Below, piece after piece: positions 12,322-15,356 of a stretch of DNA of 64,000 nt. Numbering within the stretch: the stretch's first letter is position 1; every line of letters begins with the position of its first letter. Below the pieces are notes generated by a model. That model did not search any database. It was not told the DNA's origin and saw only the letters and a program-made list of their open reading frames with translations. The stretch comes from Verrucomicrobiota bacterium. Lineage in GTDB: Bacteria > Verrucomicrobiota > Verrucomicrobiia > Opitutales > UBA2995. The translations under genes and the position numbers were made by a program. The stretch lies in the NCBI GenBank assembly GCA_027622555.1, contig JAQBYJ010000013.1, forward strand, positions 1 to 64,000, given 5' to 3'.

Positions 12322-14151
12322 ATGTCTCTTTTCTTTGGGTCAGAGAGCATGATTGAGCAATTAAAACAATGGTTTATCCCTAGCGCTACGGTAGTCATCC
12401 ACCTGGGATCGGGTCGCAAACAGGTATTTCGCAAAAAGAAGTTCACCATCGGTTTTGGCTCAGTCAACACCTGGAACCTTGATACAGAAAAGCCACATGC
12501 CAGTCTCTTATTATTCCAGAAAACGAAGTCCTCGGTAGGGGTGACGCCGGCAAACCCGGACGACACGCTCCTTCTGGATGGCAAACCCTGGATGGGCGAA
12601 ATCCTGGTCAAAGAAACGGATTACACCCTACAGTTAAGGGGAGAACAGTTTCTACTTTGTCATACCGAACAACCCAAAGCCTGGCTAAAACGGATACAAC
12701 TCGATCGATGGTTGGTCTTCGAGCCCGCTACCGGAGAGATCTTTGGACCGTTGGATAAACTCCAGCTGGAGCCTTGGGTAATCGCTGAGCGAAAAGATCC
12801 CGAAGAATTAATTTATTACCCGGAAGGATCTGCAAAAGGGTTCTACATCAGCCAGGTCGTCGACATGGAACTGCCAGCAGCTAAATCTCAAAAGGAAATC
12901 CTGAAAGAGCGGCTAAAAGAACACCGCCCTTACTCAATCCGCACACCAGGTACAAACCCACACCAGGCAAAATGTCCTCATTGCTGGAGCCCATACATCG
13001 ATGGTGAGCTTCTCACCATTGCCATGCATGAAACGCTCAGAGGCGATCCCCTTTTGGGTGAGGACGACATGCTCCGCTTTGAAGCGGATTCGTTTAATGA
13101 TAAGGGCGCACCTTTAGATGCAACCGGCACCCCTTGCCTGGAAAAGGCTTGCCCTCAGTGCCGATTGAAAGTCCCTCATGGCCTCGGAGATATCCCTCAA
13201 GCCTTCATATCTGTGCTCGGATCCCCCGGTGCCGGGAAAAGCTATTTTTTAGCGGTAATAACCGATGAACTACAGAAGAAAGCTTTCGAGAAATGGAACT
13301 TTCATTGGAAGGATGCTGATCCGACGGCCAACGCACCGCTGAACAGCATGCGGCATCGACTATTCAGCGCACAAAACGCAGCGGACGCTTACCTGGCGAA
13401 AACCAGTTTGGATGGCCATCTGTATTCAAGAGTGAATCTAAACGGTCGCCCCACCCTTTTGCCCAAACCATTCACCTACATACTCGAGGGAGAGAACAGA
13501 CAATCGCAGAGCCTGACATTTTATGACAACGCGGGTGAACATTTTCAGCCTGGCTCCGACGGCACGTCCAACCCGGTAACTCACCACTTGGCTCATGCCG
13601 ACCTATGGTGCTTTCTTTTCGATCCGTCCAAAGATGCTTCTTTCCGCAAGCATTTGAAGTCATCCAAAGATCCTCAATTGACCAGACGCTATCCAACCGA
13701 AAGCCAGGAGCTGTTGTTGTCGGAGCTAGAAAATAGGATCCGTGTGCTTCATCAACTCTCCCCGTTAGGAAAGCTAAATACCCCCCTGGCATTTATAGTC
13801 AACAAGTCCGACATGATACACGACTGGGAACCCATGGGAAAACTGAAGGATCCATGGAACGGCAGACATTTCAATTCACTGATTGTTGAAGATAATTCAC
13901 AAATCCTGCGGGAAGGATTGCGCGAACGGGTGCCGACCATCGTTGCCCGGGCAGAATCGCTTTCTGAAAAAGTAATTTATTTCGCCTCTTCTTCATTAGG
14001 TCACTCGCCGAGACAGATTAAAACCGGCGAACTAAGCCCGATCCCCAAGAAGATCAAACCGAGTGGCGTCGAGATACCCATTTTCTGGTGGCTTAGCAGC
14101 TGGTCGACCGTGTTTAACAACCAAAATAACAACAAATGGCAAAACAGCTGA
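12322..14151 (+). CDS. FHA-like / Zn-ribbon / TRAFAC-type GTPase protein
   Basis: 609 residues with four parts. Residues about 22-112 look like an FHA/SMAD beta-sandwich (VVIHLGSGRK, FTIGFGSVNTWNLD, HASLLLF, LLLDGKPW). Residues 128-180 (DRWLVFEP...GEIFGPLDKLQ) may be a GYF-like domain. A zinc ribbon follows, with C218/C221 (CPHC) and C277/C280 (CPQC). Residues about 294-575 are a GTPase: P-loop GSPGAGKS (300-307), G3 DNAGE (402-406), and NKSD (494-497), which indicates guanine specificity. This is like the GTPases of GTPase-associated (GAP1) systems. It overlaps the next gene by 16 nt, so the two are translationally coupled. Start 12322 is the longest; an ATG at 12349 is also possible. Confidence 0.7.
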   Translation: MSLFFGSESMIEQLKQWFIPSATVVIHLGSGRKQVFRKKKFTIGFGSVNTWNLDTEKPHASLLLFQKTKSSVGVTPANPDDTLLLDGKPWMGEILVKETDYTLQLRGEQFLLCHTEQPKAWLKRIQLDRWLVFEPATGEIFGPLDKLQLEPWVIAERKDPEELIYYPEGSAKGFYISQVVDMELPAAKSQKEILKERLKEHRPYSIRTPGTNPHQAKCPHCWSPYIDGELLTIAMHETLRGDPLLGEDDMLRFEADSFNDKGAPLDATGTPCLEKACPQCRLKVPHGLGDIPQAFISVLGSPGAGKSYFLAVITDELQKKAFEKWNFHWKDADPTANAPLNSMRHRLFSAQNAADAYLAKTSLDGHLYSRVNLNGRPTLLPKPFTYILEGENRQSQSLTFYDNAGEHFQPGSDGTSNPVTHHLAHADLWCFLFDPSKDASFRKHLKSSKDPQLTRRYPTESQELLLSELENRIRVLHQLSPLGKLNTPLAFIVNKSDMIHDWEPMGKLKDPWNGRHFNSLIVEDNSQILREGLRERVPTIVARAESLSEKVIYFASSSLGHSPRQIKTGELSPIPKKIKPSGVEIPIFWWLSSWSTVFNNQNNNKWQNS

Positions 14152-14759
14152 TTTTCGGAAGTGTTCCTCACGGACTTCAGCCCGGACGCAGCGGATATTG
14201 CTTGGTAGCTGGTCATACCGATTTACCTAATTCCCTCATTCGCCAGTTGGAACAGGAAACAAGTGTTTTCCCTGAAGGAGTTGAGGTGGTTCCACCCTGT
14301 CATAAAACCAGAATGGTTGGAGATAAAGAATGGCACCTCTTCATCCATCAAACGATCAATATCAAAGACTACACCGGTCGTTTGAGTGGCGTTACCCATG
14401 TAATTGCCGAACGGGCTGATAACTTTTCCACTGGTACACACTCGGAATCCTTCCTGAACAATTTCACAGGTTGGATTACTGAGATTCCAAAAATGCCCGA
14501 GGTATTTGGAGAAGAGAAAGAAATCGATTTGGGTGGTTTTCAACGCGTTCGAAATGACCCACCATTAAAGGAAGCTCAACCGGTCGGGCAGTCAACCGGG
14601 CCAACGTTCCGCTTAGACTCGACCGCCGAAACGAAGCGACCCGTACCCAGGCCGAGAAGCGGTATTTATTATGAGCGTAAGCCTAAAAGAAACCGCCTGG
14701 GTTGGTGGTTCGCAGGTGGACTTCTTATTGTGATTATTGTTTTTGTAATCACTCGGTAA
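14136..14759 (+). CDS. Tail-anchored GAP1-N-like partner of the GTPase
   Basis: 207 residues. The first about 110 (IFGSVPHGLQPGRSGYCLVA, LIRQLEQETSVF, INIKDYTGRLSGVTHVIAE) match the pattern of the N-terminal domain of GTPase-associated protein 1 (GAP1-N): a GL-x-PGRSG turn, an 'RxLE' helix and a 'DYTGR...H' block. A low-complexity Pro/Arg-rich linker (about 140-187) leads to a single C-terminal transmembrane helix (188-206) after the basic cluster RKPKRNR, so the domain should sit on the cytoplasmic face of the inner membrane. It overlaps the GTPase gene by 16 nt. Standard GAP1 proteins are longer, with middle and C-terminal domains that are absent here. Function unknown; probably anchors or regulates the GTPase. 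Confidence 0.6.
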   Translation: MAKQLIFGSVPHGLQPGRSGYCLVAGHTDLPNSLIRQLEQETSVFPEGVEVVPPCHKTRMVGDKEWHLFIHQTINIKDYTGRLSGVTHVIAERADNFSTGTHSESFLNNFTGWITEIPKMPEVFGEEKEIDLGGFQRVRNDPPLKEAQPVGQSTGPTFRLDSTAETKRPVPRPRSGIYYERKPKRNRLGWWFAGGLLIVIIVFVITR

Positions 14760-14840: not shown

Positions 14841-15356
14841 ATGAAAATTAAACTACTTAGTATTCTATTAGGCGGAAGTATTTCCCTCATTTCATTTTCA
14901 GGCTGTGAAAGCGGCCAAAAGGCAAAGCAAGGAGTCGCCTGGGGAGCGGCAACCGGAGCGGTACTTGGAGCCATAGTGGGTCACCAAAGCGGTGAACGAG
15001 GAGCAGGCGCGGCTATTGGCGCGGCCGGAGGGGCACTGATTGGCCATGCCGTTGGCGATGACAATGACGGGAAAGTAGCACAGCAGCGACGTAATCAAAC
15101 CGACCTTGAAATTGCGCGCGCCAGACAAGCGAAGGCGGAAGCCGATGCCAAAAAGGAGCGCCTTATTGTTACCGGAATGAAGGCTGAGGATGCCGAAATT
15201 CTTGCAGCAAAACAGAAAGCGGAGGCGGCAGAAGCCGAGCTTGCCCGCCTTCTGAAAGAACGGGAAGACGCCATCGCCAAGGCTAAAGCATTAGAAAGCT
15301 ACGAACAAAGACAGAAAGAAGCCCAAGAACAGATCAAAAATTTGCAAGGCAGCTGA
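14841..15356 (+). CDS. Glycine-zipper lipoprotein with coiled-coil tail
   Basis: 171 residues. The signal peptide ends in a lipobox (SFSGC), with Cys22 the likely lipidated residue. Residues about 28-75 are a glycine-zipper membrane segment (GAATGAVLGAIVGHQSG, GAGAAIGAAGGALIGHAVGD) of the YMGG/17-kDa surface-antigen type. The rest is a charged Ala/Lys/Glu coiled coil. Such proteins sit in the outer membrane or periplasm and help envelope integrity. It follows the GTPase pair by 81 nt in the same direction; whether it belongs to that module is uncertain. A strong terminator follows. Confidence 0.8.
   Translation: MKIKLLSILLGGSISLISFSGCESGQKAKQGVAWGAATGAVLGAIVGHQSGERGAGAAIGAAGGALIGHAVGDDNDGKVAQQRRNQTDLEIARARQAKAEADAKKERLIVTGMKAEDAEILAAKQKAEAAEAELARLLKEREDAIAKAKALESYEQRQKEAQEQIKNLQGS

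Follow-up and report, generated by a model that had tools for sequence, protein, structure and literature searches.

What does a GTPase do with a small membrane-anchored partner whose gene overlaps its own? The question is raised by two genes in a 64,000-nucleotide stretch of a Verrucomicrobiota genome (GenBank assembly GCA_027622555.1, contig JAQBYJ010000013.1, positions 1 to 64,000; hereafter the window), a DO-GTPase2 gene followed by a gene for a GAP1-N2 protein. DO-GTPases and GAP1 proteins were described by Kaur, Burroughs, Iyer and Aravind in 2020 (PMC7159879) by sequence analysis, and the literature that we found naming the family predicts its function rather than tests it. New here are the predicted longin-like fold of GAP1-N2, whose strands 4 and 5 flank an invariant arginine, and the resemblance of the GTPase to YcjX and Rag/Gtr. 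At a probability of roughly one half, we read the pair as a membrane-tethered GTPase switch in which the GAP1-N2 protein is a longin-like regulator, most likely a GTPase-activating protein (GAP) that acts through Arg82.

A conserved gene pair

An earlier note on this DNA, made from its letters alone, had described two overlapping open reading frames, and they are present as described:

12322 to 14151, + strand: DO-GTPase2 gene (Pfam PF19993), 609 residues as called
14136 to 14759, + strand: gene for the predicted tail-anchored GAP1-N2 protein (Pfam PF20013), 207 residues
14136 to 14151, + strand: overlap of the two genes, 16 nucleotides, the same 16 in the congener G005

The GTPase probably begins at M10 (ATG at 12349, giving 600 residues), since congeners align from that residue. 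The first protein scores 35.7 bits against Pfam DO-GTPase2 (cut-off 27) and carries TRAFAC-type GTPase motifs with the conserved Walker B glutamate. The second scores 27.8 bits against Pfam GAP1-N2 (cut-off 24), and a DO-GTPase gene lies directly upstream of it. With both matches above their cut-offs, the proposal of a GAP1-linked GTPase with a GAP1-N-type partner holds. Neither protein matches an NCBIfam family, and the 6.0-Mb source assembly has a single copy of each.

GTPase homologues are found in 123 of 373 genomes of the order, and GAP1-N2 in 72 of 388 genomes of the phylum. Neighbourhoods were examined in 40 regions, in 14 more and then on 80 named contigs. On the named contigs, GAP1-N2 is encoded directly downstream of the GTPase in 74 of the 77 loci with enough downstream DNA (an earlier, partly overlapping set gave 24 of 26), so the pair is not a chance arrangement and its members usually occur together, a point that the earlier note had left to a neighbourhood survey.

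A predicted longin-like fold with an invariant arginine

The GAP1-N2 protein has the following parts (pLDDT, predicted local distance difference test score; TM, transmembrane):

14136 to 14525, + strand: GAP1-N2 domain, residues 1-130, predicted longin-like (pLDDT mostly above 90)
14379 to 14381, + strand: codon of the invariant Arg82, in D78-Y-T-G-R82 between strand 4 (64-77) and strand 5 (83-93)
14526 to 14696, + strand: linker, residues 131-187, low-confidence (pLDDT 53-66) and fast-evolving (30% identity to congeners), where relatives have the middle domain
14697 to 14753, + strand: C-terminal TM helix, residues 188-206, with a basic KPKRNR just before it, from hydropathy and as a helix in the model

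The predicted model has a pLDDT of 84 overall and above 85 up to residue 130. Its elements (strands 2-9 and 21-27, helix 32-42, strands 51-61, 64-77 and 83-93, and helix 103-109) follow one another as beta-beta-alpha-beta-beta-beta-alpha, the order of a longin domain. In a VIA-align search the first 23 rows are longin-type proteins or complexes of them (Z 8.2 to 5.9), headed by a Loki roadblock-longin protein (Z 8.2), SEA/GATOR1 subunits (7.4 and 7.2), Lst4 (7.3) and the FLCN-FNIP2 complex (7.2), with C9orf72-SMCR8 at Z 6.0 and the earliest PAS match at Z 5.8. Foldseek gave weak E-values, and its highest-probability rows are mostly longin domains. The model thus points to a longin-like fold for GAP1-N2.

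Each of the 139 distinct sequences covering position 82 has arginine there, as do 46 of 46 clusters under 60% identity. Asp78 is kept in 136 of the 139, and Ser9 and Gly20 are likewise nearly invariant. In longin/DENN GAPs the catalytic arginine is located between strands 4 and 5 (PMC12803157); that of SMCR8 has been shown in the ARF1 active site, with NPRL2 and FLCN treated alike (PMC8213707), and in yeast Npr2 the residue assigned is Arg84 (PMC9646525). The NPRL2 motif, checked against PDB chains, is KKYSR78-NALLF, to be set beside DYTGR82-xNxL of GAP1-N2. As no sequence comparison links the two families, their likeness is one of predicted fold and residue position and not shown homology.

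By hydropathy the protein has a single TM segment, starting at residue 188 of 207, with none earlier, and is thus a predicted tail-anchored membrane protein. The earlier note had the partner stripped of everything after its N domain except this helix, and that is what we found, the helix lying in the last ~20 residues of all three congeneric copies. At the other extreme of length, the GAP1-N2 open frame downstream of the GTPase at L156 runs to at least 2662 residues, far longer than the others.

The GTPase and its front domains

The features of the first protein are, in order:

12379 to 12681, + strand: FHA-fold domain, residues 20-120, phosphothreonine contacts degenerate (structural match)
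12703 to 12861, + strand: tentative GYF_2-like segment, residues ~128-180 (beta-beta-alpha-beta in the model)
12973 to 13161, + strand: zinc-ribbon cysteines CPHC (218-221) and CPQC (277-280)
13192 to 14109, + strand: GTPase domain, residues 291-596, YcjX/Rag-like fold (structural matches of the model)
13219 to 13242, + strand: P-loop GSPGAGKS, residues 300-307
13525 to 13539, + strand: DNAGE, the G3/Walker B motif with the family glutamate, residues 402-406 (E406 in 51 of 52 homologues)
13801 to 13812, + strand: NKSD, the G4 motif, residues 494-497 (GKxD in most relatives)

The P-loop, DNAGE and NKSD motifs begin at residues 300, 402 and 494, where the first reading of the sequence had placed them. 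The zinc ribbon proposed there is also present as two CPxC pairs (in context, CPHCW from 218 and CPQCR from 277) whose cysteines are conserved in 48-53 of 53 homologues. In the AlphaFold2 model (pLDDT 86), the best structural match of the GTPase domain is YcjX (6nz5, Z 14.4; also 6nz4), although identity is 15%, neither the FHA fold nor the zinc ribbon is matched and Pfam YcjX gives no hit. Next, among other small GTPases, come the Gtr/Rag structures 9h4q, 8fw5 and 3r7w (Z 12.5-12.8). A PDB sequence-profile search with the GTPase profile gave no usable matches. Gtr/Rag GTPases are substrates of longin GAPs.

From an FHA-like domain at the front of the GTPase, the earlier note had suggested phosphopeptide-dependent membrane recruitment; the fold is supported here and the recruitment is not. 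The model of residues 20-120 superposes on 3po8 with Z 12.2 and a root-mean-square deviation of 2.6 Å over 94 residues, and further FHA structures, among them EmbR (2fez, Z 12.0), OdhI (11.6) and GarA, match at Z 11.3-12.0, despite the lack of any match between the window protein and the Pfam FHA profile (PF00498). On this model we take the FHA fold to be real. The phosphothreonine contacts G-R, S, H and N-G (GRSGHNG) are, however, replaced in the window by G-F, H, L and D-T (GFHALDT). The complete contact set is kept by no order-level relative and is found only in the distant members L101-L103; Pfam FHA is recognised in 3 of 35 members (best E 1.7e-17). The fold is thus inherited, but with every canonical contact residue replaced, canonical phosphothreonine reading by the window domain is very unlikely. 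The TM helix of the GAP1-N2 partner would explain membrane attachment more simply.

Between the FHA fold and the zinc ribbon, the segment at ~128-180 aligns with the Pfam-recognised GYF_2 domains of L101 and L103; the GYF_2 profile (PF14237) matches these two distant members only and not the window protein. Both of these DO-GTPase2 genes (L101:4704-6857 and L103:4574-6718) encode a canonical FHA domain followed by the GYF_2-type domain. An 804-residue protein of another kind (L089:6266-8680) matches the window GTPase only at residues 65-182, from the FHA to the GYF-like part. Two other DO-GTPase2 genes (L069:5907-7172 and L088:2458-3669) start at the zinc ribbon, have no FHA/GYF region and are still paired with GAP1-N2. 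The GTPase homologues of family f10 (L070, L079, L081 and L095) are without most of the zinc-ribbon cysteines and have no recognised GAP1 gene adjoining; in genome G374, GAP1 and the third gene discussed below sit on a separate contig (L071) from the f10 GTPase.

A proposed membrane-tethered switch and its rivals

In the mechanism that we favour, a soluble DO-GTPase2 carries at its front an FHA fold, a GYF-like segment and a zinc ribbon, which most likely serve to dock other proteins and not to read phosphothreonine, and a small longin-like domain would be held at the inner membrane face by its C-terminal helix. GAP1-N2 would bind the GTPase directly, as the gene overlap and co-occurrence suggest, and regulate its nucleotide state. 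It would most likely be a GAP that positions Arg82 beside the bound GTP, in the manner of NPRL2, FLCN and SMCR8; the predicted fold and the position of Arg82 argue for such an activity. The direction of the signal we infer. Sensing or output must come from other proteins, because the genus has lost both the GAP1 middle domain and a third membrane protein.

The window protein resembles the longin GAPs GATOR1 NPRL2, FLCN-FNIP and C9orf72-SMCR8 in its predicted fold, its strand 4-5 arginine, its Rag-like partner GTPase and its membrane site. It differs from them as a single short domain with its own TM helix, no DENN part and no detectable sequence relation, known from its sequence and a model. 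A wider proposal is that the GAP1-N2 proteins of hundreds of mostly multicellular bacteria are longin-domain GAPs with an arginine finger, that the pair is a bacterial counterpart of Rag/GATOR1, and that its simplest known form is the one in the window, a single GTPase with a single tail-anchored longin. This we put forward tentatively, with the odds somewhat against it. The most valuable outcome of the analysis is a testable, family-wide prediction: GAP1-N2 would be a longin-like regulator of GTPases, with Arg82 as the candidate catalytic residue. Should the longin-fold GAP reading hold, the family would for the first time have a concrete biochemical function, together with one residue as a target for mutation, and bacterial conflict systems would be linked to membrane-based GTPase control of the Rag/GATOR1 type. 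For purification and assay, a natural two-gene minimum is the simplest version to work with.

Several observations weigh against a GAP that acts through Arg82. Known longin GAPs combine two longin domains, or a longin with a DENN domain, and here there is a single longin. The longin Z-scores of 6-8 are near the level that common arrangements reach. Comparison of GAP1-N2 with NPRL2/Npr2 by hhalign, local and global, gave no signal (probability under 1%), and PDB sequence-profile searches with the GAP1 and GAP1-N2 profiles returned no usable match. Arg82 may be simply structural, for example paired with Asp78, and with a glutamate where Ras has Gln61 the GTPase may not need an arginine finger. 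The pair is also dispensable in the genus, as G006 shows no GAP1 in the short stretch of contig after its GTPase and the GTPase frame of G004 is disrupted.

The same conserved residues could serve a different end. GAP1-N2 might be a scaffold or an inhibitor like TagF of type VI secretion (PF09867), using its S9/G20/D78/R82 surface to dock on the GTPase or on the FHA domain, and keeping the GTPase at the membrane with catalysis untouched, as TagF holds Fha. TagF structures are in the VIA-align list (6iz8 at Z 5.5; 2qnu and 9t0n at Z 5.2), and TagF shares with the D78-Y-T-G-R82 of GAP1-N2 a D-x-x-G-R motif (DRVGR in 2qnu, DSSGR in 9t0n), of which Asp81 and Arg85 are two of the three residues changed in the S79/D81/R85 mutant, which no longer binds Fha (PMC5995506). 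The partner of TagF is an FHA protein, and the window GTPase begins with an FHA fold. However, hhalign to TagF_N gave a probability of 0.4% with no hmmsearch signal, TagF_N had no match over the cut-off across the phylum, there is no type VI context here and the TagF case involves no GTPase. The FHA domain is, moreover, the fastest-evolving domain of the GTPase, and the motif persists at L069 and L088, where the GTPases lack an FHA region. Since the partners of these two GTPases keep the arginine, the conserved surface is more likely to serve the GTPase than the FHA domain, and we consider a TagF-like role doubtful.

Longin/roadblock pairs often act as guanine nucleotide exchange factors (GEFs) or as platforms for a GTPase, and GAP1-N2 might be one of these rather than a GAP. 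Roadblock/longin platforms are mainly GEFs and only sometimes GAPs (PMC10933270), and the longins of TRAPP and Mon1-Ccz1 are among the structural matches. GEF platforms have, however, no known need of an invariant strand 4-5 arginine, kept here in 139 of 139 sequences, which makes this role improbable.

A reduced form of a known system

In the three-domain GAP1 architecture (N, M and C), GAP1 is encoded downstream of the GTPase (PMC7159879). The part of that text on GAP1-N2 systems describes zinc ribbons on the GTPase, often a C-terminal TM segment on GAP1, FNIII-repeat proteins and many variable components, with verrucomicrobia among the hosts; GYF domains are placed in separate planctomycete proteins. 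The passages on DO-GTPases there mention neither an FHA/GYF_2 architecture nor a longin or roadblock fold, and those on FHA concern other systems. Set against the systems as that text gives them, the window shares the two core families, the gene order, the zinc ribbon, the Walker B glutamate and the C-terminal TM segment of GAP1. It differs in having no GAP1-M, GAP1-C, FNIII or other variable component, effector or second GTPase, and in the FHA fold and GYF_2-like segment added to its GTPase. No FNIII-repeat gene, other variable component or effector gene lies beside the pair. As the three-domain GAP1 and the variable components and effectors are absent, we do not class the locus as a complete GAP1-N2 conflict system but as a reduced variant, whose two proteins belong to known families. 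The earlier note had thought that such a switch may be undescribed: the families, their pairing, the zinc ribbons and TM-bearing GAP1 proteins are already in the text of PMC7159879, whereas the two-gene form of an N2 domain with a TM helix, confined to this genus in our sample, is not described in that text.

A close comparison is with Verrucomicrobiota operons of three genes (L068, L077, L096 and L131), which encode a DO-GTPase2 (about 26-43% identity to that of the window), a GAP1 of N2-M-TM architecture and a large TM protein. The third protein, of about 930-1150 residues, has a single TM helix close to residue 360 and belongs to no Pfam or NCBIfam family; examples lie at L068:9386-12172, L096:689-3658 and L131:2000-5032. 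We scored the middle domain with a profile of our own, because the Pfam GAP1-M model lacks the sensitivity needed to show that the domain is missing. The middle region is present in 73 of the 74 paired loci, the sole exception being L134 of G005, the window's close relative, and the third gene is present in 49 of the 53 loci with room for it. The window protein and L134 have no middle domain, and a profile of the third protein found no match in the window genome or five congeners, while it did give matches in three control genomes. The reduction to two genes proposed in the earlier note is thus supported. A tree of 59 GTPases groups the window with L065 and L067 in one clade (Shimodaira-Hasegawa-like approximate likelihood ratio test support 100). 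Because three-gene lineages stand on both sides of this clade, the simplest reading of the two-gene form is a derived reduction by loss, with the caution that the branch leading to the clade is long.

Variation and selection within the genus

The genome G005 has the same pair, 75% (GTPase) and 52% (GAP1) identical to that of the window, and a partial second GTPase copy (L066). In G004, a single contig, the pair lies at the same place with an intact GAP1 and a GTPase frame disrupted near codon 270 (L064:6034-7822). G006 carries a GTPase of 59% identity elsewhere (L067:5009-6826), beside PSCyt/DUF1501 genes, with no GAP1 in the only 0.3 kb of contig left after it; a tRNA next to this GTPase, suspected from a reading frame, was rejected when ARAGORN found none. 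The pair was not found in G003 or G007.

Both genes are under purifying selection. Between the window and G005 the GTPase has a nonsynonymous divergence (pN) of 0.15 and a synonymous divergence (pS) of 0.80, whose ratio is only rough because pS is saturated. The core of GAP1 (residues 1-95) is 80% identical to that of its congener, the linker 30% and the TM segment 20%, and a TM helix still ends all three copies, the pattern to be expected when selection acts on the core and on membrane anchoring but not on the exact sequence of the anchor. A further reading, in which the pair is a functionless leftover of a three-gene conflict system in decay, is very improbable: the loss of the third component and middle domain in the genus, the disrupted frame in G004, the missing GAP1 in G006 and the absence of the pair from G003 and G007 would fit it, but purifying selection acts on both genes, the overlap is kept and the TM segment stays hydrophobic despite drift.

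Surroundings of the pair

Rfam models found no RNA in the 10-19 kb part of the window, promoter and terminator scans gave no more signals than shuffled sequence, and PADLOC anti-phage families showed nothing notable. A gene for a Gly-zipper protein (14841-15356, same strand) begins 81 nucleotides past the pair. This lipoprotein was considered as a member of the system and rejected: in G001, of another genus, its gene stands beside a pyridoxal-phosphate (PLP) enzyme gene without the pair, and it is therefore probably unrelated. In G003 a distance of 1.0 kb separates the flanking PLP-enzyme and SNF2 genes, with the pair missing between them. Since these flanks lack the pair, and G001 has the Gly-zipper and PLP-enzyme genes without it, the pair appears to be an accessory module untied to its neighbours.

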